DNA from: Gordius sp. MW1 | Taxonomy: Eukaryota; Nematomorpha; Gordioida; Gordea; Gordiidae | NCBI GenBank assembly: GCA_964036665.1 | Contig: OZ038532.1 | Span: forward strand, 3,038,001-3,102,000 | Reading direction: 5' to 3' | Length of the DNA: 64,000 nucleotides | Shown here: piece by piece, positions 6,612-64,000 of the stretch | How positions within the stretch are numbered: the stretch's first letter is position 1 | Layout: each line of letters opens with the position of its first letter | Program-made: the position numbers and the translations under genes | Notes under the pieces: generated by a model | Told to the model about the DNA's origin: nothing | Seen by the model: only the letters and a program-made list of their open reading frames with translations | Database searches by the model: none

Positions 6612-6623
6612 TCTCCTACCCCC

Positions 6624-8206: not shown

Positions 8207-8220
8207 ATTGCTATGCAATT

Positions 8221-9877: not shown

Positions 9878-9949
9878 GTAAGAAAACAAGGAAATATTAT
9901 TTCTTTAAAATTGGCAATCGTAAAAGCGGCTGGGGGGGGGGGTGTGGGG

Positions 9950-12984: not shown

Positions 12985-13520
12985 CAAATTTTTATTTTTT
13001 TTTAAATTAAATTAATATTATGTTCTTGTTAATACCATGGATATTATGACTTTTGGACCTTCCGCTGGCTACTGACCAATTAAAAAAATGACCATTGGCC
13101 AATCGAAATTTTTCGTTTTTGAATAGGTTAACATTGATAAATTGCCCTATGCTCTCCCCTACAAGTGCCTATGCTTCTACTGATATGGGTCCCTGTGCCC
13201 CTACAAAGGTTTATGCCTCTATTTAATGTGGGTTCGAATCCCGGCGAGGGCAATTTTTTTAAATTAAAGGGAAAATTTGCATAAATAATTAACTAATCAT
13301 TTTGCATTTAATCTCTTTAGGCATTTTCGCCCCTTCCCACCTTTCTCGCCCATATTTTTTAATCAGATGGAAAATTTGTATAAACATTTGCATATAACGC
13401 CCATAAATTGCATAGCAAACATGCTACGTTTATACGGAGTATAGATGAGTCGTCCCCCCTTCCCTTCCCCCCTTCCCTTCTCCCCTCCCCCTTCCCACGA
13501 GGGCCGAAGGCCCGAGTTTT

Positions 13521-15089: not shown

Positions 15090-15094
15090 CGAGT

Positions 15095-15784: not shown

Positions 15785-16018
15785 TGTTGAGTCTTGATAT
15801 ATTTATTGAGGGATCTTAAACTACAAACACGAAGACTGAATAACTATTAGCGATTTTTGTATATAAAGGGTAAGAACGCGTTATGGTGGGGTGATACGCG
15901 TGATGGTAGGGTGATCGCGTGATGGTGGGGTGATTGTGTGATAGTGCCGTGATAATGAATATAATTTGAATAAACATAATTTGAATAAACGCGCATGGTG
16001 CAGTTGCAGTATACAACA
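15785..16018 (-). repeat. Gypsy 5' LTR
   Basis: 234 bp, same length and almost the same sequence as 6378-6611. On the minus strand it ends ACTCAACA, and the gag ATG follows directly. The primer-binding site candidate TGGCGC starts within that ATG. GTTCC at 16019-16023 matches 6373-6377. Confidence 0.93.
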
Positions 16019-16072
16019 GTTCCCACTTCCATTCCCCCCTCCCCCTTCCCACGAGGGCCGAAGGTCCGAGTT

Positions 16073-18800: not shown

Positions 18801-18951
18801 AAGGTTTATATCTTTATTATATATCATGTACAATCTTTATTCGATTATCATCATCATAATTTCAATTTTCAAAGTTTTTCGTGATTATACGTTTTAAAAA
18901 ATAGACACTAAAGTCCATCCCAACAATACTTCTCACATCACTAATTGACGT

Positions 18952-19601
18952 TCAATCATATCCTTTCTTTCCTTCATACTCTTTCTCACCAATCTCATAA
19001 ACCTTTCCTCCTTTTTCATATGCTTTTTCATCAGCCTTTCCATCTTTTTCATACGATTTCGCCTCATTTTCGTAACCTTTATCGTATGTTTTGTACGCGT
19101 ACTCCATTTCCTCTTCCAACTTAAGCTTGTTTATATAACGCGGATCTTCCTCTTCTATGTATGGTATGAAATCGGGTATATATTCGAAAAGGTCGGCCTC
19201 AGCCCCAGCTTCAGCCATGTAATCAAATCCGAGATCATAGCTTTTGTAAGCGTAATCAAAGTCGTAATATTCCTCATAATAATGTTCCATGTAAATTTTG
19301 GCGCACCTCTTGTATCGTTTATCATGAAAAATTTGCTTCAAAACAGGGAAATAATCTATGGCACTTTTGCTTTCGGGCAGTGGAGTTTTTGTGCCTTCTT
19401 GAAGTTCTATGTTAAAATCTTCATAAATTGGTACTTGATTGCTAATTACTATTGCAGCTCTGTATTGATTTTCTAAATCTACCGGTAAAATTTTCAAGGC
19501 GGCCAATGTTAATATTAAATCCATTTCATTATCTGGAACGTATGGCATAATACTCTGGAATTGCTCTTGTTTCCATTGACTGTAATCTTGTGGTCTAAAT
19601 T
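18952..19601 (-). CDS. Exon 9: Tyr-rich acidic cytoplasmic tail
   Basis: Acceptor tttttag before aatttagacc (minus strand) joins the phase-1 donor of exon 8, giving K-FRPQDYSQWKQEQF. The encoded 216 residues include PYVPDNEMDLILTLAALK, a run of tyrosines (HYYEEYYDFDYAYKSYD), EADLFEYIPDFIPYIEEED, and degenerate repeats YEKDGKADEKAYEKGGKVYE before TGA at 18952-18954. Extending the frame upstream to a Met at 19737 gives hydrophobic residues translated from intron, which I think are spurious. The B' counterpart (37297-37915) is broken. Confidence 0.7.
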
Positions 19602-25953: not shown

Positions 25954-26039
25954 ATATGTCTCTAAATTTTACGTTACATTTTTTCATATTTAAACTCTAC
26001 ATTCATTAGTTTTTACCGATGTAAGTTTATTTTAATTAT

Positions 26040-26960
26040 TTAAAGATACGAAATTATAAATAAAAAGTTGGACAGTCTCAGAATTACATAGCAATTTAGT
26101 TTACATTATATAGGCATAATTTATATTAAAAGGTTGTCGTGGGCTCATAAGAAGATTAAAATGGCTATTTTTATTTTATTTTAAATTTAAAGAAATTTTC
26201 ACAGCTTCGAGATTTTTATGAAATATACTTTAAAAGAATAGGTAAGAGGTATTGTTAATTCAAGAAAATTGCGCAAAATATTGTCAATATATTGAATTGT
26301 TAATAAATTTAACCTAATCACTAATTTTATTATACAAAATTTCTGGTGGTTTTATCATGGGCGTAGCCACTAGCCAGTATTGGGATTAGAGGGGGCAATA
26401 ATAATTTAGGGAGGTGTAAAATGATCATTTATTGAAATAGCCATAATTTTAATAAATTTCAACAAATTTTGAGGATTTAGAAGGGTCAGCCACCCTCCCT
26501 GCCCCCCCCCCGGCTAGCCCCATGAATTTTACCTTGTAATTTCATCATTATAATAATAGTTTTTTGTTAATCAACATTAAAAATGAAATAAACAATTTAT
26601 TTATTTTTAATTTTATGAACTTAAAAAATAAAAAAACTTACGGATAGGGTCCCTAGTAGTCATAGTAAGGTAACCAGGACTTGATAATGATGAGAATAAA
26701 AATAGGAGGAAAGTGATATAGTATAAATAGTGTGGCCTTCTTGTGTCTTCCACTTTCATTTCAATAAATCACTGTTTTTTTACAAATTTAGAAACCTACA
26801 TTCTTTACCACTTTTTATGATGACAAAGTTACACAAAAATAATAATTTTAAAATGTATACCTGTTTGCATCAGAGGTCTTGTTTAGATTTTTCTGCTCCC
26901 CGGCCCGGTCCAATTTTATATTGACCGACCGGGCACCTTACCTAAACTGCCCAGCCCGAA
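26040..26960. other. Upstream flank of gene B; MITE and hAT-like GC-rich remnant
   Basis: Conserved with 40680-41620. Contains a GGGCGTAGCC MITE (26357-26523) and a GC-rich hAT-like remnant (26893-26958, 'ccggcccggtccaattttat'). The promoter of the gene in B should lie between 25954 and about 26350, but no clear TATA or initiator stands out in this AT-rich sequence. Confidence 0.5.
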
Positions 26961-27299
26961 AATATAATTTTTTTTTTAATTTTTAGTATAATAGTTTTGT
27001 GATATTTTTCAAAATAAATTGATTCGATTCTAGATTTGGTTGGAGGGGAACTACGAATAATACATATACAACAATCAAATAGAAAAGTGACAAAATACTA
27101 CATGAAAACCAACTATATAAAAGAACATACTTAGAAATAATAAATCCATCATATAAACTGGGGGGTTTTATTAATGATCTCGTAAGAATGATAAAAAATA
27201 TAGATTGCCCGAATCTTCTGCATATGGTTTTATGTTTATATTTAAAATTCTCAAAAAATTTGTTATTCATAAAAACAATACACATGCAGAAGAACATCA

Positions 27300-27735
27300 A
27301 TTGTAGAATTTAAGCGAAGCACTACAAAGAATTCAACGTGCAGGAATGAAAGCAAGAAGGGGAAAAGTAAAGTTCTTTCAAGAAACTGTCGTCTATCTAG
27401 GACATAAAATTTACGCGACTGAATCACCCTAACACATGAAAGGGTCGAAGCAATAAAAAATTGTAAGACGCCGATGAATGAAAAAGAATTGCGGGCATTT
27501 GGGCTTGTCAACTATCAAGAAATACCGCGATTGCACGAAAAATGCATGGAACTATTACATTCCCAAACAAGTTCCTCTCATAGGATGGTGTTGAATGCAG
27601 AGAGAAAACGATATTTTTAATGAAGTTAAATATTCGTTTTCATCTTCTGATACTATTGTTCCTTTTTAGACAAGTTTACCTCTAATATTATCAGTTAACG
27701 TCTCTGAGTTCGGGATTAGGAGCGTCCTCCGAGCC
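27300..27735 (+). pseudogene. Gypsy-type reverse transcriptase/RNase H remnant
   Basis: The plus strand, with several frameshifts, reads LQRIQRAGMKARRGKVKFF, VVYLGHKI, an ELRAFxGLVNY-like stretch, and LILSVNVSEFGI. That order matches the thumb/connection region and RNase H start of a Ty3/gypsy pol (YLGH and the LxLSxDAS block). It is unrelated in sequence to the intact-order gypsy at 6378-16018. B has no counterpart at 16480, so it is an insertion in B' bounded by GC-rich hAT-like stretches. Confidence 0.6.
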
Positions 27736-27879
27736 CGGCCCGATCCCTAAAGTCTTTTTTTTATTTTTAGCCCACCAAATTTTTCAAAAAGATACTTTTG
27801 AAAAATTTGATTTGCACAAATTTTTTAACCATATAAATATAAAATGCATTAAATTTTTATTAATCGTAACATGTTTTAT

Positions 27880-28012
27880 AAATAGTTCGATTCGGGCAGG
27901 GCTTGGATGCCCGATTATTTTATTAAATTATGCCTGATCCCGGCCCGACATCTGATTGAGTCGGGCTCGGGCCGGGTCGGCCTTCGGGCGGCCCTTGCAG
28001 TGTTCTACATTT
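27880..28012. repeat. GC-rich hAT-like terminal remnant
   Basis: The stretch 'gggctcgggccgggtcggcc' then 'ttcgggcggcccttgcag' is the type of end seen in hAT elements with CCCG-rich subterminal repeats. No target duplication identified. It borders the gypsy remnant. Confidence 0.4.
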
Positions 28013-28763
28013 AGGGCATATAGTTTTTAAATTTTTTCTAATAAATTTATTTATGACATCAAGTTTATTTAATCATAAATGATGAAATATTTAAAATTAA
28101 ATTAGCGACATTTATTTTATATTTTTTTTTAAATTTAAGCGGTATTTAAAATAGAATACACGTTACATTTTCATAAATTATTTTTTAAGTCTTTACAGAT
28201 TTGTGAAATTATATGGAATATTACAACGTAGTTGTTATAGGATACTTCGGTAATATTCTTATGTGCCTGACTTAATTTTCGTATTTTTAATTTCCTTTTG
28301 CCTTTACCTAAAATAATTAATAATAAAATTTTATAAATATCTAAAATTGTTAAACGTTTTTAGTGCGTTAAATAAACGTTTTAATAATAAAATTACTTGT
28401 AGACCCATCTGTACAATCTTAGTCGTTAACAGTCTAAACAAAGCAATTTATTAAATGAAATTAAAATAAATTTACTGCTCAAGATTTTGCAGATGATTTT
28501 GAACCGCGGTTTTCGAAATATTCTAAAATATATTCACGATCGATGCTAGAATTCCTGTTTTTCATTATTAATTGGGGAGTTTTCTCAAAATTTTAAATAA
28601 TATTTTGGCCAAATCTCCTTTCTGACCCAAAACTTGCATAAAATATTTAAGATCAACATTATCTTTCAAAGCTTTCGTAGCCATTTGTTATTTATAACAT
28701 AAAATTAGGTAATAATCATTGCTTTTACCAATTTATAAATATATAATGTATTTTATTGTTATA

Positions 28764-33462: not shown

Positions 33463-33474
33463 ACATACATCATC

Positions 33475-45715: not shown

Positions 45716-47300
45716 TTAAGTTATTCCATATCTTTCTATTGGTTTTCGGATTCGTGTAGATCGCCGGACCGTTATTTCGGGTGAGGGTATAGGTGAATGA
45801 GGGGAGTCCGTACGAGGGGGTAGAGGTGAGAGCGGGGGAGGAATGACTAGCCTATTATCGCTAGCTTCATCATGTGGTAGATTAGGCTGTTGCGGGATGG
45901 TGGCGTTCAATAAATCACTGGGTTCATTTTGTGGCAGATCACCTGGTATTGCGTGCGAAATGTCAGCCCATCGATCTTCATAGTTAAGCGTGTCTGCTTC
46001 ATCTAAAGATTTTCTAATATGATCACCATGTCTCTTCCATAATGCTCCATTATCCATTTCTACCATGTACGATACTGGGCCTAAGATTTTTACTATTTTT
46101 CCCGTTACCCATAATTTATCATTAGTTGTGAAAGTTCTAACCCACACACTATCTCCAATTATAAATTTCCGTTTGATGGGTGCCAACTCGTCTTTGTCAA
46201 GACCAGTTACATGTGGGTTGAGTAAATTTAATGGACCGTTTGGTTGTATTTTGATTAATAAATTGGCTGGAGTTAATCCAGTTGTTGGGTGAATGGTATT
46301 CCTATAAGAAAACAGAAAGTTATATAATTTATCGTTTTTAAAATTCTAAGTTTTGTTTAAAAACTCCTTAAATTTTCGGACGAAACGTTCAGCTTCTCCG
46401 TTGGATCGAGGATGATACGGGCTGGAATATGCGTTACGAATGTTATTTGTTTTGCAGTATGTTTTAAATTCGGCGCTTGTAAATTGAGGCCCATTGTCTT
46501 TAGCCAGGGTGCTAGGTACTCCGAACCTTGAGAAAATAGCTTCGAGAGCGTTAAGAGTGCTTGACGTTGTTATCGTCATCATAGGGATCACCTCGGGCAA
46601 TTTACTGTAGGCGTCAATGAAAATTAGCTAATAATACCCATTAATTGGTCCGCAAAAATCTGCATGTAACCTAGACCATGGTTTTCCCGGGTTTTCCCAT
46701 TTTTGCGTAGCTAATTCGTTTTGCCAGTGAACCATTGTTGACAATCCACACAGTTTTGAACATAACCTTCTATATCTTTATCAAACCTGGATACCAGAGA
46801 TGTTGACGAGCCAAAATTTTTGAGCGACGCATGCCTGGGTGTCCTAAGTGGATTAGTTTCAGAATGGTTTGCCTTAATCCTTGAGGAATAATAATTCGGT
46901 ATCCCCAAAATATGCAGCCTTTTAAGGTGGTAAGTTCTCTTTGCCGTTGTTGGTAAACAACTAGGTCTGGAGTAACTTTCTTCGGCCAGCCATGGAGTAC
47001 ATAGTTGTAGACTTGTTCCAGGATAGGATCTTTACGAGTATGACGCTCTATGTCGGCGGATGTAATGGGGAATTGTTGGAATGGTTCTTCATAAATGGTG
47101 TGTATATCATCTTCTTCTCCTTGTTCTAGCGTTTCTTCAGATTGTATCGGAAGTCTTGATAACATATCAGCTTGTCTAATTTCATTGCCAATTTTGTACT
47201 TTATGGTATATTGATAAGGTGTTGTTAGCAAGGTCCATTTCTGAAGTCTCGCTGAAACGCCTTGTGATACATTTTTATTCGGGTTGAATATTGATATTAA
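45716..47300 (-). pseudogene. Gypsy integrase half, copy A' (broken)
   Basis: Same domain order as 6624-8206. The zinc-binding Cys is intact here (NCVDCQQ). It shares with A the TAG before the first catalytic Asp (46628-46630). It has AKDNGPQF where A has ATDNGPQF, and an extra stop in FLNKT*NFKN near 46346. The C-terminal domain frame is 46186-45716. Confidence 0.9.
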
Positions 47301-47309
47301 TTGCTATGC

Positions 47310-48040
47310 AATTTATGGGCTCGTTTTTGGTTGTCCGTCGTCCGTCGTCCACCAAGTTATTGGCGCCAGCTTTGTGACCTGGATATCCCGGGTTCAAGCC
47401 AGGGAGAGGACGAATTTTTTTTTTTAATTTTTTTAAATTAAATTAATATTTTGTTCTTGTTAATACCATAGATAATATGAATTTTTGACCATCCGCTGGC
47501 TACTGACCAATGAAAAAAATGACCATTGGCCAAATAAAGCGAAATTTTTAATTTCTATATGCAATTTATGGTATTTTTTCGTCTTTAAATAGGTTAACAT
47601 TGATAATTACCCTATGCCCTTTCCTACAAGGGCCTACGCCTCTACTGATATGGGTCCCTGTGCCCCTTACCAAAGCCTATGCCTTTACTGATATGGGTCC
47701 CTGTGCCCCTTACCAAACCCTATACCTTTACTTATGTGGGTTCGAATCCCGGAGAGGGCAAAATTTTTATTTATTTTTTAAATTAAATTAATATATTGTT
47801 CTTGTTAATACCATTGATAATGTGACCTTCCGTCCGCTGGCTACTGATCAATGAAAAAAAATGACCATTGGCCAAAGTATAAATTGAAATTTTTTTTTCG
47901 TTTTTGAATTGGTTAACATTGATAATTACCCTATGCCCTCCCCTACAAGGGTCTATGTTTCATTATCTATATATTGTCACGCTCTTCGGTGTCTTGCACC
48001 GAATGTCTTGTCACGCATCGAATGTCTTCTCACGCTGTTT
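47310..48040 (+). repeat. tRNA-like module tandem and CACCGAATGTCTTG repeats (A')
   Basis: Orthologous to 8221-8960. The GTCCGTC tract is one unit longer here. The B box GGGTTCGAATCCCGG is at about 47738-47752. Confidence 0.7.
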
Positions 48041-48704
48041 ACTTTTATTATTGTTAAGTAATGATGTAGGCAGGCAGCAAGCGTCATGTTTGAGGCATCA
48101 TTTAACAAAGTAAAGAAAGGATATGCGTTTTGTTGGATAATAGATATGAAAAGATTGTTATCCTTTCTTTCTTCCATGACTTTTGCAATATTTCACCGCG
48201 CAATTGCGCACATTGAAAAAACCTCGGGCAAAATGGGACGGCCTAAGTTCCTTAATAATAATTTACCGAGCGAACGAAAATTACATGTTCGCCATTATAT
48301 TGTTGGTTTATTAGTATAAACTATAAAGTAGTGTTTTAAAAAGGGAGGGCTGAGCTTTGTTTGGTCCTCCTCTAGGCGGCTTCTTAAATAGATCAGAAGA
48401 GTTTAGCGTTAGTCTTATCCGTTGTTAAACCAAATGTGGACGCCACAAAACCGAGTCAGCCCGAGACTAGTCTCCTCACTCAAGGATAAACTTTACCTAA
48501 GTTTGTTTCTAGGGTTGTTTATGTGCGCATTTCGGATAAAACTAAGCAATCAATCAACCTATGATACCCTCGATCGACCTTAAAAATCTATAAATTTGTG
48601 TTTTAACCTATCCTAAAACTCCTCAATATGATTTTGCCCCTATTAGATTTTGATGTGTTGCATAGCCTAAAATGAATGCACTACTCTTTTCTGTTTGTTT
48701 TTAG

Positions 48705-51700
48705 AGTAGAAAAGCGTTGCCGCATTATGAAAAATCGCTGCAGATCGTGCCCGCCCAAGCCGAAGTTTCATTTACGATCGGCTGCTTGGCTCTAACCCTA
48801 GCAGCAGGGGGCCAACACGAAGGTGCTCAAGGTGGTGTGTGCAATTACGAATTTGCGGAGTCTTGTTTCAGGAAAAGTGTCATGATTGAACCGGATAATT
48901 TTAGGGCTTGGAACAATTTAGCTAGGGTTCAGATGAAGAGAAACCTTTGGGAACAATCGGCATTCTGGACCTTAAAAGTAAGCAAGCAAGGAAATATTAT
49001 TTCTTTAAAATTGGCAGATCGTAAAAGCGGCTGGGGGGGGGGGGTTTAGTTTGGTCCACCTTTGGGGTTATGGTTATAGTCGAGTCCACTAAACCGAAAC
49101 AGCAGACAGACCAAAGTGGACCTCAAGGAAGGCTTAGTTGATGATATTTGAAAAAGGGAGCATAGTTAGTCTTTCTTAGTTGAACCAAAGGTGTCGACAC
49201 CAAACACCACTACCCCCCAGCCCCTTTTTACAAAACATTAGCAGCACAGGGCACAAGCTAATGTTACACAATCTACCTACGTTAATCAAGGTAAATTTTA
49301 CCGATTAATTTGCAAGTTATTGGCGTTTATAAAACGTCAATAATTACTGTTTTTTCCATTGACAGCAGCAACTTGACCGACTATAGGGAAAGAATTTAAA
49401 GTATATTCCTGTCCTGTTCACCGTTGCAAACTCTACCAGAATCTGCAAACTGTATGTCAGTTGATGATTTGATGGGTCCATTACATGTTGACTATAGAAA
49501 GATAGGCAGGCATTTAATGTTCTCAACATCATATTCTTTTTACAATACCTTTTTGCAATTTTCACTGAACAAATGCGCACCTATCAAAAAAGTTCACACA
49601 CAATTTCGTTCGACCCTTTTTTCTTGCTAAAATTTACTACTAAAATTGGTTGTTGGTTAGACGACGATTGTATTATTGGTCGTCTATGTATTTATGGATA
49701 AAAATTGCAATAAAATTATTTTTTATGTGGTTTTTATTATAGCAGCTATATGGCCTTGTTTTTGGTTGTTCGTTCTGTCCAACTTGGTTGGAATTGATTG
49801 CTGCTATGATTTGTAATAGTCTGTATAGACTTACTTGAATTGAAAGTATTGTTTTCCCGTTGCTAGTATATTATTACAAAAGGCAATAATAATTGTTAAT
49901 TGCTATGCAATTTATGGGCTCACTTTCCATTTTGTTTTGTCCCGCTATTCGGTGTCTTGCACCGAATGTCTTGTCACGCACCGAATGTCTTGTCTTGTTG
50001 TTTACTTTTAATTTTTGTTAATTTAACTAGTTTTTGGGTTAGAATCCCGGAATTTTTTTTGACTCTTAGTTCTTGTTACTACCATTGATAATAAGACTTT
50101 TTGGCCGTCCGCTGGCTGCTGACCAATGAAAAAAATGACCATTGGCCAAAATGTGAATCCGAGTTTATTTTTTCGTTTTTTTTGACTATTATGATTGTTC
50201 CTGTTACTACCATTGCTATTATAACATTTTGGCCGTCCGCTCGCTCCTGACCGATGGAAAAAATGACCATTGGCCAAAATGTGAATCGAAATTATTTTTT
50301 TCGTTTTTTTTGACTATTATGATTGCTCCTGTTACTACCATTGCTATTATGTCTTTTTGACCGTCCGTTGCTGACCAATGGAAAAAAATGACCATTAACC
50401 AAAATGTGAAAATTTTTTTTTTTTTGACTATTATGATTGTTCCTGTTATTATTATTACCTTTGTAGGTTCAGAAATTTGAAATAAAAAGTTATTGTCCGC
50501 CTTAAATAGTATAACTTCTATCGTAGATAAAAACACACTAAGGCATTAATCAACGTATCTAGGTTCCCGACCTTAAAATCAACCCTAAACCCATAGTAAA
50601 ATTTATTTACATCATCTCCCTTTGTTTACTTGCTTATTTATTTATTAATTTATTTTATTTATACATTTATATGTTTTTTGTCTTAGGAGGCTTTGAAGTA
50701 CAATTATCACGGGGCTTGGCAGATGTGGGAAAATTTAGCTTACGTCAGCGCCCGACTCCTGGCCATTAGTGACGTCATCGAATGTCTTTTACGCCTGCGC
50801 GAATTATTGTTATCACGTGATCATTTGACGGCCCGGACCGCCCTAAGCCCAAAGGACTCTTTCATTGATTTGAATGATAAAAGTACATACTAATCGTTGA
50901 TGGACAAAACTTGCAGATTGTTAACTGCTTAGACTAATAATACTAACTATATACTGGTAAACAGCTGATAATGTTTGAGTAAGGGTGTAGGTCGCCCTCT
51001 TTGAGGTCATTAATAATAATATTAAACGCTATATCCATTTTATTAATCTTAATATTTATCTGCAAAATATATATTAAGCAAGCAAATATCACCTAACAAA
51101 AGAGCATGAACGTAGTCAGGATTGAATTTAGGGGGGAGGGGGGGGGGGCAATCTGAATTAGGGAGGGGGGTAAAATGATCATTTTTGGAAATTTTCTTAA
51201 CAAATTTTTTGAATCTAGAGGCAGTTACGGCCTTGCAAAAGACCTTAACAATGAAATTGATTTTTTTTTGGGGGGGGGGAATTGATACTACATTTTAAAT
51301 AGTTAATTAAATGTGTAAGATTCCACATTAAAGTATTCACACAAAATGGCGTCTTAAGTTGTTTATTTCTATGCAATAAACAGCTGTTCGTCAGTGTCTG
51401 TATAGTTTTATAATAAGTCTAAAATTAGATCTAGTACTATCTTTTATTTATTTTATTATCCCTTTGCGACGACAGACAACTACACTAACAACAACAACAA
51501 CAACCTTTAGCTGTAATGTTGTAAAACGACTGACTGGATTTAAATAGTTTGGTCGACCGACAGCCTTTGGTTTTGGTCGTGTCATAATCAGACCAAAGAC
51601 TTCTTGGTCACTCTGCCTAAGTCTTATAAACAGCAGAATAAAACCTTTGGTCTGTTCTGTTTATGTTCATGTTTAGTCTATGATGACTAAAACCAAAGGA

Positions 51701-54700
51701 GGCTGTCGACGACCAAACTAAACCACCCAGCCAGCCAGCAGTTTGTTTAACACTAGAGGCAAATTTATTTGCTATCACCTCCCTGCCTGACAACCGCCAT
51801 TTTTTTACAAGGCAGGAAATGTGCTGCATTACACACTATATGAAATATGATTTACTCGCAATATCAGAACAGAATGTTATCCTTTTTATAATAACAACTT
51901 CTTTTTTATTTACTCTCTTCTTTTGGCTTTTAAACTAAAAATTAAAATTTAATGCAATGAAATACGAATTGAAAATAATAATATTATGTAAAAAGAAAAA
52001 CGCCCACAATTTGATTTTAGGCCAAGCGGAAGGATTTAACGGAAATGGTGTTAATCGGTCGGCAGGAGGTGCTGCCATCTTTGATCGGATTGTGCCTGGT
52101 ATGTTGGAGGTTGTCGTTAGCGACGACGTACCAACTTTTCCCAACGCTACGCCAGCCGTAAAGTTGAAACCTAAAGTCGAACAGCTGTTTCGTGCCCTTA
52201 CCTCCGAGGTAACGAAAAGGATTCCTACTCGTCTCATATTTTTAGTCTGCCACACTGCTTTTTGTTCCCTTTTAAAAAATATGCATTTTGTTTAGGATAA
52301 TATTTTAAAAGAGGATGGTTTTAGTTGTTTCTGCATTTTTAACTTGTAAATTGTTAAGTTCGTGCCTGAATGTTTAATTAATTCTGTAAGAAAATCAATC
52401 ATCATTCATTGATCTTTAAATGTTGTTTCTAATGGTATCGTCGAGCGATTGACATTTTTTGTTTCACCAACGGTCGACTACTCTATTTTGTTTTTTAAAT
52501 GGGACCAAGCTTAGTTGTCGACTGCAAAAAGGAGATCTTAGTCTATGACTAAAACTCCTGGTCGTCGACCAAATCAAACCAAACTCAGCCCTTTTTACAA
52601 CAACACTACACTACTTGAAAGGAAGGAGACTGACTAATAATACAATCACAATAGGAAGGATGGTGGATAAATGAATGAACAGCTGACTGGCTCTAAACCT
52701 AAAAAAGAACCAATACGTTGAAGCGAGCGCGTCTGTTTTTCTCTTCTCAGTCGACGGACGACCTCTAGGAAGGAGGCTTAGTCGAAATTTGAAAAAGAGA
52801 TAGCAGACCAGCAGAGTCACTCACTCAATCACTACTTCATTGTCAAGTGTCGTCCTGTAATACCCTTTCTTTCTAGGGTTGTTTAACATATCATCAAAAA
52901 TTTATGATTTTGCATAAATCCTTCAATTTCAACCTTTTTGCCCTTCCCTGTTAAATAACATTTCCCACTTTTAGGCCTGAAAAGGATTATAAATACTAAC
53001 TGTTCATGGTTTTGAAGGTATGCGACAATGGTACCATCTGGTTTTTGTATGCCGAATTCGCGCTAGCTGGCAAAGACCTTTCGGGTCCTCAATTATTGCA
53101 GGTTAGTACTTTTCCTTATAATCCTTTTGATAACCTATATTATTTTTTAAACCAAAATTTTCTCTATTGATCATATTGTCTTATTAGCTCTGCTTAGCCC
53201 TTTGGTGTGTCAAGTAGAGGCCTGCAAAGTCACTTTTTTTCAACCCGAATCCGACCCGACCCGAAAGCATTTTTAAATTTTCAACCCAAACCGGACCTGA
53301 CCCGAAAGCGTTTTTAAAATTTTAACCCGAACCCGACCCGACCCGAAAGCGTTTTTAAATTTTCAACCCGAACCCGACCCGAAAGCGTTAATAAATTAAG
53401 TATAAAATTTTAGATCTACATAATAATAAATAAAACTTACTTTTTAGTTGATTCATAAATATTTAGTTATATCTTTATGTAGTTAAATTTATAATTTGCT
53501 CTATAGACTATAAACAATAATGCTCCTCGCGAATCGTACAAACCGATGAAGAGGTTGGCGCCAGGAAGGGCATCCGGCTGTAAAACATGCTCCAACCCCC
53601 CCCCCCCCCCCTATGAATACAAAGTCGAATGGGCGGGGTACAGCCCTAAGTACCCCGTGGGTTAACTCATCGACCGACGTCAAAAAGAAAGATGAGGATC
53701 CTGGTCAAATCGTTTGGGAACTCCGCAAGGATTCCCTCCTCATGATGGTCATCGACTTGAAAATATTCGAGGAGGCCGGTTTAAAGGCGACACGCTAAGA
53801 ATCGCTACCTGGAACATAGGGAATATGACGGGAAGAGCGGGCGAGGTAGTGGAAGCACTCAATCGGAGAAGGATAGATATATGCTGCATACAGGAGACAA
53901 GGTGGAAAGGAGAAGGTGCTAGGATGATGGGAGCCATTGGTGCGCGGTATAAATTCTACTGGCAAGGGCACAAGGATGGAAAAGCTGGTATAGGGATAAT
54001 GGGTGGACAAAGTTATCGATGTCAAGCGATGGAATGACCGGATTATAGTTATAAAGATGGCGATGGGAGAAAGGCTATTCAACGCTATATCGGCCTACGC
54101 CCCTCAAGTAGGAAGAAGCGATGAAGAAAAAGACATTTTCTGGGATCGTCTGATGGAAATTACTTCCCACCTTCAAGAATCTATTATTTTAGGCGGGGAT
54201 CTAAACGGACATGTTGGCGCGAATATCGATGGTTATGAAGGGGTTCATGATGGTCACAGCTATGGAACCAGGAATCCGGAGGGGGAACGCATTTTGGATT
54301 TTGGGGACGCTACTCAGATGGTTATATGCAATACTTTCTTCAAGAAAGAAGACAGGAAACTTATAACATATGAATCGGGTACATTCAAAAGTACTGTCGA
54401 CTATATGATGGTCAAAAAATCGGACAGATGTATGGTGAAAAACGTCAGGTTTTCCCCGGGGAAGAATGCGTGACACAACACCGTCTTATCGTTGGGGATT
54501 TCGTAATGAAGGGGCTTATAAACCCAAGAAACGTTATATCCCTAGGCTAAAGGCGTGGTGCTTAAAAGATGGTACTCAAAAAAGGGATTTTGCCAAAGCA
54601 CTTGATGGAACCTCAGTTTCGATGGCGAAGAACGTGAACGACAAATGGACGGCTATGAAGAATGCTTGGCTTGACACAACAGCGCGCGTTTGCGGTTGGA

Positions 54701-57700
54701 CAAAGGGGCCCCCAAGACACAAGGAAACTTGGTGGTGGAACTCTGAGGCGGCGAAAGCTATTGAAGATAAAAGGCGCTGCTATAAAGTCTGGCATGAATT
54801 CCAACAAAGGTCCGACAAAGTCGTTAATCAAGAGGCTAAAAGAATTGCAAGAAGGACCGTCGCCAGAAAAGGAAACAAAAAGTTGCGAGTTTGCTAAAAC
54901 GCCTTGATTCAGAGGAAGGGACGAAACACATGTTTCGAGTAGCTAAACAAATTGCGAAAGAAACACTAGATGTTAGGGCGGTCACATGCGTTAAAACTCC
55001 CGCGGGTAACATCATCTCCCATGGCGATGAAATCAAAAAGGTCTGGAAAACTACATGAAACGACTCTTAAACGAAGAGAACACCTGGGACAATAACGTCG
55101 GTTGCGATAAAGTGGAGGGACCCTGCTGTTGGATATGGACTGACGAAATTCAGCATGCAATCAATAAAATGAAACAAGGTAAAGCAGCAGTCCCCACAGG
55201 AATAGTGGCGGAAATGGTAAAAGCTTCTGGACATTTGGGAGTCGTTTGGCTTACACAGCTGTGTAATGCCATAATCCAGGAAGGGACCATACCCAGCGAC
55301 TGGAAAAATAGCGTTCTTTTACCAATATACAAAGGAAAAGGTGATCCACTTGACTGCGGATCATATCGGGCTATTAAGCTCCTTGACCAAACTTTGAAAG
55401 TTATCGAGAGGGTGTTCGAGAAAGGAATCCGGAACAAACGAACATCGACGCAATGCAGTTTGGATTCCAACCAGGGACAGGGACCACCGATTCTTTATAC
55501 TACGACAGATGCAAGAAAAATACCAAGGTAAAGGCAAAAGACTTTACTATACCTTCGTAGACCTTGAGAAAGCGTTCGACCGTGTGCCGCGGGAAGTTGT
55601 AAAATGGGCTCTTAGAAAAACAGGTGTGGAAGAATGGTTGGTTACGGCTGTCATGTCTATGTATCACGAATCTCAAACGGCAGTGAGGACCCATGATGGC
55701 GATAGCGAAAGCTTTGAAGTGAAGGTTGGGCTACACCAAGGTTCCGTTTTAAGCCCCCTACTTTTCATACTTGTAATGGAGGTGGTGACAAAACAACTGC
55801 GAGAAGGACTCCCATGGAAACTTTTATACGCCGATGATCTCTTGATAATGGCTGAGAGTGAGGCTGATCTCTCAATAAAGATACTAAAATGGAAGGAATG
55901 GAGGCAAAGGGCTTAAAAGTTAAAATGGGAAAAACAAAGGTGTTGTTAGTCGGGAAAAGTATGAAGAGCGCCGAGCCAACTTGCGCCTGGCCCTGTAGCG
56001 TATGTCACAAAGGAGTGGCTAGCAACTCTATACAATGCAGAAAATGCCTAGGATGGGTCCACAAAAAATGTAGCGGTGTGAAAGGAAGTCTTATATTGGC
56101 AAGCCGTACGTGTAACTGCAAGCCTTGCGCCACAGGACCTCTACCGGATAATGCCCTAATCGACTTTAACATCGGTAATGGGGAGACGCTAGGAAAAGTT
56201 GACACCTTTACCTACCTCGGGGACTCTTTCAGTGCAGATGGGAATGTTGACTCGGCACAGCAAGGATACGACAAGCCTGGAAGAAGTTTAGAGAGATGGC
56301 CCCTCTTTTGACCAGAAAAGGTGTCTCACTCACTTTAAAGGGTAAAGTCTACGCGGCATGTATTAGAAGTTGTCTTGTATATGGAAGTGAAACGTGGCCA
56401 CTAAGGTCGACAGATAAAGTCAAATTGGAAAGCACAGAAATGCGTATGAGATGGATGTCAAGCGTGTCGCTACGGGAAAGAAAAACAAGCCATACAATCC
56501 GAGAAAGAATTGGGATCGAGCCAATCAACGAGGTCATCCGGAAAAACAGGCTAAGATGGTTTGGACATGTGGAGCGGAAGAATGACGACAACTGGGTGGA
56601 GAAATGTACTTCGGAGGTATCTGGAAAGAAACCGCGCGGGAGGCCGAAATCCACATGGTCTTCCGTTCTCGCTAATGACATGGAAAAAATGGGCCTGACA
56701 AAACACGATTCTCATGACCGGATAAAATGGAGGAAATGCATTATGGGAATACAGGTCAACCCAGGAGATTCTGGAAAACGGCCTTAAAACGACGAAGAAG
56801 AAGAAGAAGACTATAAACAATAATAAATAATTATTTGTTAATATTTTACCTTTCGTGATTCAACCTTAAATTGATTATTTAATTATGACTTTACGTAGTT
56901 AAATTAATAATTTACTCTATAGACTATAAACAATAATAAATACTAATTTGTTAATATTTTACCTTTCGTGATTCAGCTTTAAATTCAAATTTGCCTCCAA
57001 ATTAAACAAATTAAAAAAATAGAAAAGGAAATTGATTACATGAATGTATGATTATAATTAGTTATACAATTCGATATTGTTTTACAAAAATTATAGATAA
57101 TAGCATTAATTTAACAAATACGTTTTGTTCATTTTGTAATGTAAGATTCATATCCTTTGACCCGACTCTATAAATCCAACCCGACCCGACCCAAAAGCAT
57201 TCTAAAATTTTCAACCCGAACCCGACCCGACCCGAAAGCGTTTTTAAATTTTTTAACCCAATCCCGACCCGACCTCGGGTTTCGGGTGACCCGTGCAGGC
57301 CTCTAGTGTCAAGGGTGAAAGTTTTTATCGCACGAATAAATAGAAGACAAATTAAACCCTTTAGACTTTACCTTTTTTACTCTGTTTTGCAATTTGGGGG
57401 TAGCGAAAGGGTTAAAAAATATTATAAACCATTTTTTGGTATGCAAGTTATGCTTTGTTGTTACAATATTGTATGGTGTAAATTCCTTATGATTTTTAAT
57501 TACCATTTTATCGATCAATCGGTACTAAGATCTCTGGTATAAAATATATAGGAAAAGTAGGCTTATCATTAGATATTTATAAACTTTTGATTCCAAAAAT
57601 TTAATATTTACTTAAATTCTATCGCTCCTGCTTAAGGGCAAAGAGTTATTTTTTTAGTTTTTTTATCATGAAATTAATGAAAGAATTTTTGTGTTAGATT

Positions 57701-59608
57701 GGTGATTACCTGTTGAAGGCTTACAAATACTACGCTGCATCCCACAAAGATTGGTTCAATCATCCTACGCAAACTCGAACGATATGCTCGTACAGCCACA
57801 AACTCGCTAGCTATTAGTACTTGATTTTGCTAACCATTCATCTGGAAAAGTTTCGTAAAAGCTCGTTACAGAGGCTTGAACCCTATCTATTTTTATCAAA
57901 ATTGACGCTTGATTTGTAGACAATCCTATGAAATAAGTTATTTAAATAATCAGAAGAAAATAATAACCCCTTTCAGGAGTGCCGCAAAAGGTATTCTCCA
58001 ATTAGCGCCAATTATAGGCAATTTTAATTAGAGCCTAATTTGAACTATATATATCCCATCTTTTTTAGCATTAAAGTATTTTTGAAAGATAGGGGTTCTA
58101 TTTTTCAATATATCATCGCGAATTAACTAAATAATAATTAATGAAAGTGACAAATGGGGACGAAGTTTTTGGGATTTTTATAATTTTATTGGTATAATTT
58201 TTATTGGATTTCTCAGTGTTGAAAACATAAAAACATGATCAAATCTAAATTTTTGAGTTCTGTCGATTTTTTATGCAAGTTTTACAAATTTAATATAAAT
58301 TAGAAATAAACCTGTATCGTTATTTAAAATCCATTTTATCGGAGTAAAAGCTAAGAGGGGCAGACAGTGCCACCCTCTCCCCTCCCCCTAAATCTTAGAA
58401 TTCTCTTACTACTTTTAATTCAATTATTGAAGTAGATCCCCGAAAAATCATTGCTAACTCCGTTTAAATATTAAAGTTTATCCACCCACCCCGTGGAATG
58501 AATTTATACTCCTATTTCTTTGTCTCTAAAACTTTTGGGGCCCTACAGAGAGATTTTCTATCTTAAAGACCGGTTTACCGAAACATCATCCAGTTGTTTT
58601 TGACACTGCGTGTCCTGCGTGCGAGTCAAGTCATTTCATCGTATACATTTGGCTGCAAGATTTTTAAATAAGGTTTGTGCATTAAAATTGTCCCTCCTAT
58701 ATTCTTTTTTGCCGCAAAACTGATCAGTACAAAAATTTAAAGAACTTCATCTAAACGCCAAAAACTTGGTTTTTATGAAGTCTCACAGGTCTAGAACCGT
58801 ATATCACAATTCTAAACGTATAACGTTTAGAATTGTGATATATATATTAATTGACCTTTTGCTTGCCTCGTCTTTTGATATGTGATAATTTATTATTTTT
58901 AAATTATTACGTTTTCTTTTTATTTAAGTATGTACACGACAAATGATTTCGTCAAAGGAAAATGGGGAGGAGTTATGGCAGTTATTATCATCAACTAGAC
59001 TCCTCATTAATAACACCGTTCATCGTGTTAAAGTAATATATTGCTAAACTTCTATATTATAATAAAATATATTTCTACCTTTGCCTTATAATAACTGATA
59101 GAATAGGTAGGAAAAACTGCAAAAATGGATGTTTGTTGCAGATATGTTGCCTAATGTTTTTAAAATTTTTCTATATTTTCCTTATATAAAACTTTTAGCT
59201 GCAGTTTATTTATCGGCTCACTTCTCATTTTAATTGCTATGCAATTTATGGGCTCACTTTCCATTTTCCGATGTCTTGTAACGCACCGAATGTCTTGCAC
59301 CGAATGTCTTGTCACGCACCAAATGTCTTGTCTTGTTGTTTACTTTTATTATTTTAAATGTTGTATTTAAATTATATTACCATTTTAGCAATCATCTTCA
59401 CATTTTTTTAACACTGATGAATATTTTTGATTATAAATATAAATTTGGAAAAATGTTACTTAAGAATGTATCATCTTCGTATGTTTAGGAAATTAGGACT
59501 TTAGCCATTGAGCCAACACAAAATGAGTGCCCAGATGATTTTCTTTTAGAGCTTGAAACGGACCTCGTTGCCATTAATGAAATAATAAATCAAATGCAAT
59601 CACTTTAA
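48705..59608 (+). CDS. TTC27: TTC27 3' part (TPR protein), seven exons, 5' end missing
   Basis: Exons: 48705-48977, 50687-50882, 52021-52208, 53018-53101, 57698 to about 57789, 58929-59032 and 59489-59608 (TAA). Phases match at the first four junctions (LK|EALKYN; NDK-S-QAEGF; LTSE|VCDNG; QLLQ|IGDYL) and the last (HRVK|EIRTL). Content follows TTC27: TPR repeats (EPDNFRAWNNLARVQ), WQMWENLAYVSAR, IWFLYAEFA, then a helical C-terminus. TTC27 is a conserved TPR protein (yeast homologue EMW1), implicated in spliceosomal U5 particle maturation. Exon 5 meets a stop (57817) unless spliced, and its junction with exon 6 is unresolved. Exons for roughly the first 500 residues are absent upstream. AATAAA at 59647. 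Confidence 0.8.
49040..49225. mobile_element. MITE-like inverted-repeat element in TTC27 intron
   Basis: Orthologous to 9950-10135: 'tttagtttggtccacctttg' at left, 'ccaaaggtgtcgacacc' at right. G- and C-homopolymers at its edges vary in length between copies. Confidence 0.5.
49890..50460. repeat. X hairpin end, CACCGAATGTCTTG repeats and inverted CCAATGG minisatellite
   Basis: 'ttaattgctatgcaatttat' at 49895, short 'accgaatgtcttgtcacgc' repeats to 50000, then about three CCAATGG hairpin units (50085-50430). It sits in the intron between TTC27 exons 1 and 2. This is where A diverges from A' (A 11139, A' about 50260). Confidence 0.75.
51106..51300. repeat. G-tract MITE remnant
   Basis: 'gaacgtagtcaggattgaatttaggggggagg' type sequence and 'gaatctagaggcagttacgg' match one half of the GGGCGTAGCC family. 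A second G tract lies at 51269-51279. Intronic. Confidence 0.45.
51530..51745. mobile_element. MITE-like inverted-repeat element in TTC27 intron 2
   Basis: 'atagtttggtcgaccgacag' at left pairs imperfectly with 'ctgtcgacgaccaaactaaa' at right. The middle holds 'gtctatgatgactaaaacca', shared with 52540-52560. Non-coding despite a 70-residue minus-strand frame. Confidence 0.55.
52490..52615. mobile_element. Short MITE-like element in TTC27 intron 3
   Basis: 'gggaccaagcttagttgtcg' at left and 'cgtcgaccaaatcaaacc' then 'aactcagcccttttt' at right, with 'gtctatgactaaaactcc' inside. Same family as 51530-51745 and 9229-9410. Confidence 0.5.
53789..54520 (+). pseudogene. LINE endonuclease domain (frameshifted)
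   Basis: LRIATWNIGNMTGRAGEVV and DICCIQETRWKGEGARMMG mark the exonuclease-endonuclease-phosphatase fold. After a frameshift near 54000, AYAPQVGRSDEEKDIFWDRL and ILGGDLNGHVG (catalytic Asp/Asn) follow, then YGTRNPEGERILDFGD and STVDYMMV. The frame breaks again at 54473. The domain nicks target DNA. Confidence 0.9.
54521..56787 (+). pseudogene. LINE reverse transcriptase and Cys-rich C-terminal region (frameshifted)
   Basis: Linker (54521-55050) with a stop at 54895. RT: PTGIVAEMVKASG, TIPSDWKNSVLLPIYKGKGD, FVDLEKAFDRVPREVVKW, LHQGSVLSPLLFILVMEVV and the catalytic YADD (55827-55838). A stop at 55914 then leads to CSVCHKGVASNSIQCRKC and WVHKKCSGVKGS (55995-56090), a zinc-finger-like insert. FTYLGDSFSADGNVD and the C-terminal RLRWFGHVERKNDDNWV region follow. 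Copies element RNA at the nick; inactive here. Confidence 0.9.
57790..58928. other. TTC27 intron 5, no gene; perfect palindrome inside
   Basis: AT-rich intron sequence. A C/A-rich stretch at 58367-58392 ('ccaccctctcccctccccct') is the only compositional feature besides the inverted repeat at 58800-58842. No TE coding recognised. Confidence 0.5.
58800..58842. repeat. Perfect 20-bp inverted repeat, 3-nt loop
   Basis: The arm 58800-58819 (TATATCACAATTCTAAACGT) is exactly complementary to 58823-58842, with ATA between. A longer AT-rich tail follows. It lies in the intron before TTC27 exon 6. Confidence 0.95.
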
Positions 59609-59646
59609 TACCTGTATATTGTTGAAACTATGTTTAATTTGTTGAT

Positions 59647-59652
59647 AATAAA
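59647..59652 (+). terminator. Polyadenylation signal of TTC27 fragment
   Basis: AATAAA 39 nt after the TAA stop at 59606-59608, in a T-rich context ('cgttattcttttgttag' follows). Supports the captured fragment including the natural gene end. Confidence 0.6.
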
Positions 59653-59744
59653 TGTTGAATCGTTATTCTTTTGTTAGAGTAAAATTGTCAAGATGTATGG
59701 AAATGCTAAATAAAAAGGTCTCATAGTAATTTGATAATTGTTCT

Positions 59745-62030
59745 ATTAATTGCTATGCAATTTATGGGCTCGTTTTTGGTTGTCCATCCGTTGTCCGTTG
59801 TCCGTCCATTACATTCCAATGTATATTAATTGCTATGCAATTTATATTTAATTAAATTAATATTTTGTTCTTGTTAATACCATTGATAATATGACTTTTT
59901 GACCGTCCGCAGGCTACTGACCATTGAAAAAAATGACCATTGGCCAAATAAATCGAAATTTTTTTTTTGTTTTTGAATAGGTTAACATTGATAATTACCC
60001 TATGCCCTCCACTACAAGGGCCTATGCCTCTACTGATAAGGGTCCCTGTGCCCCTACAAAAGTTTATTAATTGATATGCAATTTATGGTCTCACTTTCCA
60101 TTTTCCGAATGTCTTGTCACGCACCGAATGTCTTGCACCGAATGTCTTGTCACGCTTTTTTTAACAGTATAGATATTGCTATTATTAATTTAACTAGTTT
60201 TTGGGTTCGAATCCCGGTTTTTGGGTTCGAAGCCCGGGGATTTTTTTGACTATTATGATTGTTCCTGTTACTACCAATGCTATTATAACTTTTTGGCAGT
60301 CCGCTGGCTGCTGACCGATGGAAAAACTGACCATTGGCCAAAATGTGAATCGAAATTTTTTTTTCTCGTTTTTTTTGGCTAACATTGAAAATTACCCTAT
60401 GCCCTCCCCTAACAGAGCCTATGCCTCTACTGATATGGGTCCCTGTGCCCCCCCCCCCTACATTATGCCTATCCAGATCTGTGGTTCGAATCCCGGAGAG
60501 GCCAAAAAATTTTAAATAAAATTTTTTTATTTTTTGTTTAAATTAATATATAGTTATTGTTCATACCATTGATAATGTGACTTTTTGGCCGTCCGCTGGC
60601 TACTGACCACTGGAAAAAAATGACCATTGGCCAAAGTGTGAATCAAAAATTTTTTTCCGGTTTTTTTGACTCTTATGATTGTTCCTGTTAATACCATTGA
60701 TAATATGGCTAATTGGCCATCCGCTGGCTACTGACCAATGAAAAAAATGACCATTGGCCAAAGTGAGCATCAAAAACTTTTTTTTCGTTTTTTTGGCTAA
60801 CATTGATTTATAGAGTATCTGTTGGTACTGACCAATGGAAAAAATGACCATTGGCCAAAGTGTGGATCGAAATTTTTATTCGTTTTTGACTCGTATGTAT
60901 TTATAGACCGTCTCTTGGTACTGACCAATCGAAAAAATGACCATTGGCCAAATTGTGATTTAAAATTTTTTTTTCGTTTTTTTGACTCGTATGTATTTAT
61001 AAATAGTCTCTTGGTACTGATCAATGGAAAAAGAATGACCATTAGCCAAATTGTGATTCAAAATTTTTTTTTCGTTTTTTTGACTCGCATGTAATTATAG
61101 ACCTTCTCTTGGTACTGACCAATAAAAAAATGAACATTGGCCATATTGCTTAAGTAAAGGCTAAAATTTTAAAATGCTCCTCCCAAAATAATTATTTTCG
61201 TTTTTGAATAGGTTAACGTTGATAATTGCCCTATGCCCTCCCTTACAAGTGCCTATTTTTAAATTAAATTAATATTTTGTTCTTGTTGATATTTGTTAAA
61301 TTATCTATAATATATTGATTTTCTATTATTGTTTCATTTTATTATATAATAAACATAAATAAACACATCTTTATTATTTCATTATCTATATAAATATAAC
61401 ATAAAAACTTCTATGATTTTAATGCCAGCATGGTAGAGTGGTTATAGCAACGGCTTACTTACTTGGAGGTTCGGGATCGAGACCCGGAGAGGTCACAAAT
61501 TTTTATTTTTTTTTAAATTAAATTAATATTATGTTCTTGTTAATACCATAGATATTATGACTTTTTGACCTTCCGCTGGCTACTGACCAATTAAAAAAAT
61601 GACCATTGGCCAAATAAATCGAAATTTTTCGTTTTTGAATAGGTTAACATTGATAAATTGCCCTATGCTCTCCCCTACAAGTGCCTAAGCTTCTACTGAT
61701 ATGGGTCCCTGTGCCCCTACAAAGGTTTACGCCTCTATTTAATGTGGGTTCGAATCCCGGCGAGGGCAATTTTTTTAATTAAATGGAAAATTTGCATAAA
61801 TAATTAACTAATCATTTTGCATTTAATACCCCTCTATAGGCATTTTTGCCCCTTCCCACCTTTCTCGCCCATATTTTTTAATTAGATGGAAAATTTGTAT
61901 AAACATTTTGCATATAACGCCCATAAATTGCATAGCAAATATGCTACGTTTATACTGAGTATAGATGAGTCGTCCCCTTTTCCCTTCCCCCCTTCCCTTC
62001 TCCCCTCCCTCTTCCCACGAGGGCCGAAGG
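59745..62030 (+). repeat. X modules downstream of TTC27 (matches 11260-13510)
   Basis: Hairpin ends at about 59752 and 59827, CACCGAATGTCTTG repeats (60105-60155) and B-box modules at about 60200 and 60485. A CCAATGG minisatellite spans 60580-61145, and further tRNA-like modules lie at 61660-61775. The reversed subterminal repeat ('gcccataaattgcatagcaa', 61919-61938), pyrimidine tract and cap hairpin end the element at 62038. Confidence 0.8.
61422..61495 (+). repeat. tRNA-derived SINE head
   Basis: 'tgccagcatggtagagtggt' gives an A box, and GGATCGAGACC a B-box-like motif at about 61473-61483. Closer to a tRNA consensus than the copy at 12912-12984 (TGGTAGAGTGG), but still without acceptor pairing. 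Confidence 0.65.
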
Positions 62031-62038
62031 CCCGAGCT

Positions 62039-63616
62039 TTAATGGTTTGTGATCTGTAAGTAATTTAAAATGGAGGCCATATAAATATTCCTTAAATTTA
62101 TTAACAGCATAAATGATGGCTAAAGCTTCTTTTTCAATCTGGCTATAATTTCTTTCAGCAGCACTAAGGGTGCGGGACGCAAAGGCAATAGGGTGATGAT
62201 AACCTTTATTTCGTGGGAAAGTACTGCCCCGAGTCCCTCAGAGGAAGCATCCGTCGAGAGTATTAACGGTAACTCATGGTCAAAATGTTTTAATATCGGG
62301 GCCTTGATAATGGCTTTTTTAATGTTTTTGAATGCATTTGTACAGTCTATGGACCAATTCCAAGTTACAGTTTTCCTTAGCAATTTATAAAGCGGTTGTG
62401 CTAACGTAGAGAAATTTTTTATGAATTTCGCGTAGTATGTTGCCATGCCTAAAAAGGATTGTAATTCTTTTATTTTAGTTGGGGCGAGTGCTGCTAAAAT
62501 GGCTTTAGTATTTTTGTCAGTGGTAAAAATTCCGTCTTTACTAATGGTATGACCTAAATATTCCACTTTTTTTTCCAAAAATTTACACTTCCCTAATTTA
62601 AGTTTTAGGCCTGTTTTTTCCAATTCTTTAAAAAATTTTTCCAATTTTTGATTATGGTCCTCTATTGTCTTGCCAGCTATAATGATGTCATCTAGGTAAA
62701 CTACTATTCCCTTATTATTTCTAAATAATGAATCCATAAATCTTTGAAAAATAGCTGGGGCCGAGGCTATGCCAAAAGGTAGTTTAGTATATTTAAAAAG
62801 GCCCCTATGCGTATTAATTGCCAATAAGATTTGAGAATTTTCGCTAACTTTTATTTGGAAATAGGCGTCCTCAAGGTCCAAAACGGAAAAATATTTAAAA
62901 CCGCCTAGTTGAGCAAAAATATCTTGAATACGTGGTAAAGGATATTTTTCAATTAACAGGTGCTTGTTTAAATCACGGAAGTCGCCGCAAATACGGATGT
63001 TTCCATTATTTTTAATGACAGTTACAATAGGAGCAGCGTGTTCAGCGTATTTTATTGGTTTTAAGATACCTTCTTTAACTAACCTATCTAATTCTTTGTC
63101 AATTTTGGGTTTTAACATATAGGGAATAGGTCTAGGACGGAAAAAACGTGGACATAACTCATTTTTTAAATTAAGCTTTGCTTTATACCCGACTACCCCT
63201 CCCAGTTTATTTTCAAATAACACCGGATATTTTTTAACAATATTATTGGTTACTACATCATCGTTGGTATGATTAATCTCGTATCGTTGGAAAGGTTTGT
63301 TTTGCTCCCAATTCTCAGCTAGTTGACGTAATATGTGTATAAATATCCTCAACCAGTCTCTTCCCAAAATGGTTTGCCCGTTCCCCTCAGCAACGTAAAG
63401 CAAGAGTTGGTGAGTTGCGTCCTCTTCTTGCACGATTACTCTTGCCGATCCCTTTAGCGGTCTAGACGAAACATCATAACCCCTTAACTCGGTACAACAC
63501 GATTGAGTTGTAACGTGGGCCCCATTGAGAGATTTAATCAAGGTGACCGCTGATCCGGTGTCAGTTTCAAAATTAAGAATACGGTCATTTACCTTCAAAG
63601 CATAGCATGGTCGCAA
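62039..63616 (-). pseudogene. Gypsy protease-reverse transcriptase-RNase H start, copy A'
   Basis: One long frame (63616-62120, 498 residues) covers the protease (DTGSAV, ILGRDWL), reverse transcriptase with YLDD, thumb and the start of RNase H ([18 protein letters not shown]). A 1-nt loss near 62207 breaks the end of that frame. RNase H resumes as [18 protein letters not shown] and stops at LLTDHKP where the inner X-element is inserted. It is the best-preserved pol segment in the window. Confidence 0.93.
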
Positions 63617-63639
63617 CGAGTCTTTTAAATGGAAATAAT

Positions 63640-64000
63640 CTAATGAGGAAACCTTTTTGACACGGCATATCTTTCCGATATGGCCTTGGGTATGGCATTT
63701 ATAACACGTCGCAAAACGGAATTTACAGTTGACTCGAAGGTGGTTCCCCCCACATGCGAAATTTCAAATTTGATGCTGGGTGTTTGTTAGTTACTGTATG
63801 AACCGGTTCCAATTGTTGGGTGAACATATGGCTTTGGAATTTTGCCCGCTCCATTGATCTCGCAATATCTAATGCACCTTGCCATGTCAGATTATCTATA
63901 ATCAATAGGCGCTCCACAATCTTGTTATTATGTAACCCCGCCACGAACCGATCCCTTAGGTTTTCCTCGAGAGAGGCACCAAAGTTGCAATTGATAGATA
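63640..64000 (-). pseudogene. Gypsy gag C-terminal part, copy A' (cut by window end)
   Basis: The minus strand encodes ERLLIIDNLTWQGALDIARS, then HPASNLK and two zinc knuckles. The first (63740-63770) is damaged by a small deletion (FRMWGEPP). The second, CYKCHTQGHIGKIC (63671-63712), is intact, unlike in A. Confidence 0.8.

Follow-up and report, generated by a model that had tools for sequence, protein, structure and literature searches.

A HINE-bounded insert in a gypsy element

The window, a stretch of 64,000 nucleotides from Gordius sp. MW1 (C6:3038001-3102000, in an assembly searched as 211.8 Mb on 12 contigs), contains a gypsy element with a minus-strand pol gene that is interrupted within RNase H. 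The downstream, integrase side of pol lies at 45716..47298 (ORFs 45716-46345 and 46770-47303), the second ORF matching Integrase_H2C2 at 24.5 bits, slightly below the curated cut-off of 25.5. The upstream part, with the reverse transcriptase and the first half of RNase H, lies at 62039..63763; its ORF, 62120-63763, scores 116 bits with RVT_1 and ends on positions 1-51 of the 100 positions of RT_RNaseH_2. Between the two halves are 14,740 bases (47299-62038). An earlier note, made from the sequence alone, had read this arrangement as a 14.7-kb insertion splitting pol, and comparison with other gypsy copies confirms it. When 18 of the at least 38 others in the genome (L036-L053) were compared, each flank aligned separately, all 18 proved uninterrupted at the insertion point. 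In these alignments homology on the left side runs to 47300-47301 and on the right side begins at 62039, the two flanks overlapping by 4-5 bases. The empty site reads TATTGATATTAATGGTT in five of the 18 copies; the other 13 differ from this by some base yet are continuous. The five closest copies have GATATTAATGG at the site and the window has GATATT-insert-TTAATGG, so that TT stands on both sides of the insert; the target shares only this TT (or TTAA/TTAAT by overlap) with the insert's flanks.

As delimited by the empty sites and by its own ends, the insert runs on the plus strand from a HINE 5' end to a HINE 3' hairpin (47299..62038). The earlier note had taken its ends for X-element termini. 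We rejected this assignment because the subterminal repeats, 3' hairpin and TT flanks are explained by HINE; judged by their anatomy, the ends are those of a HINE, a non-autonomous Helentron. The left end, AATTGCTATGCAATTTATGGGC, is partly palindromic and returns inverted near the right end: the subterminal repeats at 47298-47320 and 61919-61941, 23 nt long, are 96% complementary. A hairpin, GGGCCGAAGGCCC, is found in the right end at 62021-62033. A scan of C6, C3 and the locus DNA for the exact pattern GGGCC-N2..5-GGCCC, by which diverged hairpins would be missed, gave seven distinct sites, all seven framed CGA-hairpin-GAG(T/C)TT, as expected if they mark the 3' end of one family. The insert itself has a single exact occurrence, at 62021 on its right edge. 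The hairpin alone folds no better than shuffled sequences (z -0.56); the last 126 nt as a whole reach z -2.68. Central repeats (families D1-D6, about 43-135 nt) fall mostly in the HINE parts, and the insertion site is T-rich, the target being otherwise unchanged in comparison with the uninterrupted copies.

Pack-TIR elements usually have target duplications, which the insert lacks at its outer ends. Its inverted repeat lies about 100 bases inside the right end, and no target duplication beyond TT/TTAA/TTAAT was found there. The insert resembles the Pack-TIRs of animals, as presented in passages of the report on them (PMC8277862), in holding single-copy host DNA between transposon ends, but it has no terminal inverted repeats at its outer ends. 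A closer model is offered by the HINE/DINE-1 elements, for which passages of Thomas et al. (2014) describe subterminal repeats, palindromic in mite HINEs, a 3' stem-loop, central repeats, and insertion with at least two T on each side of an unmodified target; the insert follows the same plan of repeats, 3' hairpin, central repeats and T flanks (PMC4067079). Our literature search found no paper on a Helentron in Nematomorpha, and papers on the genomes and transposons of hairworms contributed nothing further.

The insert contains HINE sequence on both flanks of host DNA. On the left, comparison of HINE copies identifies 47299..48052 (plus strand; HINE-L) as the 5' part of a HINE, lacking the 3' end and hairpin. 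Among the best 40 of 3645 candidates scored, at least 38 relatives outside the window match 47299-47960 at 96-98%, and 36 of these 38 begin at HINE-L's first base. In the window HINE-L ends after TGTTTACTTTTATTATT; in a comparison of 13 sequences, from which L061 was left out because it is not a HINE, 12 of 12 other HINE copies continue into internal HINE sequence at this point. HINE-L therefore has the family's start without its 3' end, and we rejected its reading as a complete short element. On the right, HINE-R (59748..62038, plus strand) carries the 3' subterminal repeat and the hairpin.

The 3' half of TTC27 and its two loci

The DNA between the two HINEs (48053..59747, plus strand) is colinear with C3:128123-120377 on the minus strand, its first alignable base being 48151, and comprises part of an intron, seven TTC27 exons with their introns, the stop codon, 3' flank and later insertions. 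The exons, all on the plus strand, are E1 (48705..48977), E2 (50687..50882), E3 (52021..52208), E4 (53018..53101), E5 (57698..57751 for its certain part), E6 (58929..59032) and E7 (59489..59608), the last with the stop TAA at 59606-59608 and followed by AATAAA at 59647 and 59709. The earlier note's description of seven exons in order with splice sites, stop and AATAAA thus stands, with AG at 7/7 acceptors and GT at 5/6 donors. In neither copy could the 3' end of E5 be fixed: over the whole candidate exon (57698-57816; C3:122413-122295) both lack a GT donor fitting the frame of E6.

Three mobile elements lie within this DNA. HINE2 (49898..50451, plus strand), in the intron between E1 and E2, is absent from C3. 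The intron between E4 and E5 holds a larger element (53215..57305, plus strand), which we take to be hAT-like, with a 12-bp terminal inverted repeat TAGAGGCCTGCA, an 8-bp target duplication GTGTCAAG and a single target near C3:124221; within it, at about 54000-56787, is a LINE-type reverse transcriptase (RVT_1). End parts of this element have relatives in an intron of the C3 TTC27 gene (C3:133303-132184). HINE3 (59232..59353, plus strand) is a 5' HINE fragment. The intron between E5 and E6 also contains a perfect 20-bp inverted repeat with a 3-base loop (58800-58842), and a scan of the insert for tRNA- and tmRNA-type genes with ARAGORN gave none.

The earlier note had proposed a search for a second, full-length TTC27 locus and a comparison of introns. 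Such a locus exists on C3, with the same seven exons (C3:127750-120546, minus strand, colinear with 48705-59605) and five upstream ones (C3:136005-128909); as for full length, the first roughly 250 residues were not located in its gene model. The captured introns do align with those of C3, and homology continues through the introns and 3' flank as far as the next HINE, on the 3' side to the 5' end of HINE-R, although the 3' flank alone aligns weakly (score 27.5, against a best of 25.5 from 200 shuffles). A search of the 104 kb of C6 that surround the insert gave none of the five upstream exons, which bears out the earlier statement that 5' exons are absent upstream; the insert locus does not hold a complete TTC27 gene, and the notion that the captured piece is the sole TTC27 locus was rejected on the evidence of C3. 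Since C3 has the same exons and introns plus the 5' exons, the piece on C6 reads as a DNA-level copy of the 3' half of TTC27. Its capture at the DNA level by a mobile element, as the earlier note had suggested, is supported in these alignments by the empty gypsy sites, by the intron homology to C3 and by the presence of 5' exons on C3 alone in the DNA examined.

At the protein level, a search with the C3 protein returned 384 proteins at E<=0.001, many of the best 120 listed being named TTC27. From this search and from an alignment with 15 homologues, the captured copy is homologous to the C-terminal half of TTC27. Captured and C3 proteins are 83% identical in amino acids; a Gordionus homologue (P0005) shares with both insertions that are absent from the 14 other aligned homologues. 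In the captured protein aligned here, which was also used for the site preferences and homologue scores below, residues 6, 8 and 22 are those of the duplicate insert (copy 1, described next); copy 2 has other residues at these three positions. The residue at the join of E5 and E6 is a guess.

The gypsy element and its insert belong to a segmental duplication of 33-37 kb on C6 (-4514..28738 and 37694..74840 in window coordinates; 92-98% identical by block). The duplicate gypsy contains a second copy of the insertion, absent from the earlier note, at 8206..13518 (plus strand), which keeps HINE-L, E1 and HINE-R. It lacks 50265-59759 of the second copy and hence exons E2-E7. Between the duplicates lie retroelement ORFs (32258-36386), perhaps BEL/Pao, one of them with an integrase zinc-binding match; a 263-aa ORF at 18952-19743 has a Y-, E- and K-rich tail and no Pfam match. 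The duplicates could instead be haplotypes placed side by side. An insert embedded in a repeat-rich, near-duplicate stretch might also be suspected of being an assembly artefact, with haplotypes or repeats wrongly joined. This we regard as very improbable, because both duplicates share the two gypsy junctions and the HINE-L/TTC27 junction, and because each outer junction coincides with a clean element end and is matched by an empty site. The right TTC27/HINE-R junction is present in only one of the two duplicates.

An old, constrained gene in a young insertion

Over 335 codons, taken from copy 2 (the 47299-62038 insert) and including only 18 codons of E5, captured and C3 exons differ by a dS of 0.35 (bootstrap 0.26-0.47) and a dN of 0.084, giving a dN/dS of 0.24 (bootstrap 0.16-0.35), with no stop in either copy. 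The exons differ by three indels, all multiples of three, and by no frameshift. Over about 4.4 kb of aligned introns there are 79 indels that are not multiples of three and JC distances of 0.23-0.65; these distances are raised by introns that align poorly, and two of the intron blocks have 138 bases in common. On one neutral branch about nine frameshifts would be expected in the coding sequence, the probability of none being about 1e-4. Simulated neutral branches of 0.10, 0.15 and 0.20 accumulated on average 4.7, 6.5 and 8.4 stops, and remained free of them in 0.6%, 0.45% and 0% of 2000 runs, respectively. The lack of stops and frameshifts, together with the low dN/dS, indicates that the captured lineage evolved under constraint during a large part of its history. 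At 37 scored differing sites the family (60 of 120 homologues) prefers the captured residue at 22 and the C3 residue at 15; without seven sites in the doubtful E5 tail or join, the numbers are 17 and 13. Some decay is nonetheless present, as the captured protein scores slightly below C3 with the family (median 60.5 against 63.0 bits; only 32 of the 120 homologues give the captured protein the higher score). Between the two window copies of E1 four codons are different, and at three of these the amino acid changes too, a pattern expected of a sequence no longer under constraint, albeit from a small number of differences.

The vehicle is much younger than its cargo appears to be. The gypsy element differs from its nearest other copy by a K of 0.023, and the two insert-bearing duplicates in the window differ from each other by a K of 0.007-0.021. 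Intermediate divergences from their best-scoring other copies are seen for HINE2 (92%), the reverse transcriptase element (94%) and the 3' part of HINE-R (61396-62036; 92%). Because the relatives of HINE-R and of HINE-L stand at different distances, the two HINEs may differ in age. What is new here, as dated from these alignments, is a captured copy that is old yet constrained, set in a gypsy element, a left HINE and a local duplication that are only 1-4% diverged. Capture from the resident TTC27 gene is accordingly a part of the earlier interpretation that we could not sustain: the divergence from C3, accumulated under constraint, would be far older than the insertion.

One could envision that a HINE took up a piece of the resident gene long ago and that this piece decayed neutrally until a recent hop into gypsy. 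The large intron distances to C3 would suit such a history, and a HINE-borne piece could have gone on moving. We give it little credence, however, in view of the 335 codons free of stops, the exons free of frameshifts and the dN/dS of 0.24. With a dN/dS of 0.05-0.15 on the C3 branch, the captured branch would have been neutral for 21-40% of its length by the point estimate, or 47-63% at the upper bootstrap bound. HINE-L, moreover, is only 2-4% from its relatives outside the window, and no other copy of the chimera was found among the matches listed, where 39 other matches all stop before the captured part.

The C3 gene in its present form is thus not the one that was copied, and as far as DNA comparison goes the copied gene is not seen in the assembly. 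Searches with E1, the E2-E4 region and the E5-E6 region, with the best 40 candidates scored in each, gave C6 and C3 only; beyond these there were partial repeat matches at query 447-746 (E2-E4 search) and 327-492 (E5-E6 search). By its divergence and constraint, the source was probably a second TTC27 lineage under constraint. A passage of PMC13049181 presents TTC27/Emw1 as an essential gene that is conserved across the eukaryotes, so that a second constrained copy would be unexpected. A constrained but distant TTC27 with no donor found by DNA could also have arrived by horizontal transfer, in a HINE unit assembled in a related species, and Helitrons are reported, in passages of two papers, to move between species (PMC4344730, PMC6544945). 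This route appears improbable, as HINE2 and the reverse transcriptase element have their relatives on many contigs of this genome and those of HINE-L reside there too, as expected for a donor in the same lineage. Since the piece holds transposons common in the genome, an old duplicate or sex-limited copy is favoured over transfer from another species. That an assembly can lack such a donor is illustrated by the texim gene of fish, an intron-bearing host gene associated with Helitrons, whose Y-linked copies were undetected in an XX female genome (PMC4021074). Texim is like the insert in combining an intron-bearing host gene with rolling-circle elements; it differs in having a Helitron coding region near or in the gene and in occupying several loci, and the passages concerned show no ends of a single mobile unit (PMC4021074).

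Proposed composite transposition and its implications

Inside the insert, a TTC27 intron adjoins a HINE that lacks its 3' end, and directly behind the gene stands a second HINE, oriented like the first and equipped with the hairpin. From the 5' end of the first HINE to the hairpin of the second, the sequence forms a single block placed at TT in gypsy. The missing 3' end of HINE-L and the single exact hairpin at the right edge fit an end-bypass (composite) rolling-circle transposition. With a probability of about 0.6, we interpret the insert as one composite HINE transposition unit carrying TTC27 from a second constrained lineage. A Helentron Rep/helicase acting from another locus would have nicked at the 5' end of HINE-L; with no terminator in HINE-L, copying would have proceeded through the seven TTC27 exons and halted at the HINE-R hairpin, and the copied strand would then have integrated in gypsy. 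By the dating, the TTC27 gene used would belong to the second constrained lineage (an old paralogue or a sex-limited copy) and not be C3; that lineage would have gathered local transposons and be absent from, or lost in, the assembly. A later local segmental duplication would have copied gypsy and insert, one copy losing E2-E7. The carried piece, without promoter-side exons, is probably a pseudogene now.

We infer the bypass step; nested or gap-filling origins would yield nearly the same end product. HINE-L holds another small stem, TTCGGTG-N5-CACCGAA, which could be a signal and would then count against bypass. Alternatively, a HINE residing in gypsy might have been broken and the gap filled, without transposition, from a HINE-flanked TTC27 locus elsewhere, in keeping with passages reporting that single-copy animal Pack-TIRs arise mostly from gap filling (PMC8277862). 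We consider such a repair unlikely: at the right inner junction the HINE begins with its natural 5' end, as in an ordinary insertion beside a gene. HINE3, too, which is flanked left and right by donor DNA, breaks off at the internal position where HINE-L does, so that the end of HINE-L need not be a repair junction.

Composite transposition has been proposed for HINEs. Passages of Thomas et al. (2014) suggest capture via missed termination or composite transposition and cite DINE-1-linked gene duplications, for which they put forward this kind of process (PMC4067079). The captures described in those passages are of histone gene fragments, one of which, from H4, shares 84% identity over 244 bp with its putative parent (PMC4067079). 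The insert, by comparison, holds seven exons, introns and a 3' end, 11.7 kb including inner insertions. HINE-borne capture of a gene with introns is of a kind already known, and the present case is well preserved. It would be a dated example of the proposed process, in which two HINEs move the gene that they flank, the first having no terminator. Its size, the missing 3' end and the conflict of ages make it a good test case for HINE-borne capture. The chances seem to us evenly balanced that this unit is the sole trace found in the genome of a second, once-functional TTC27, whether a sex-limited or lost duplicate of this essential chaperone gene or the gene of another species that the element brought in. 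The age conflict suggests that HINE units can preserve pieces of genes that are no longer seen in the genome.
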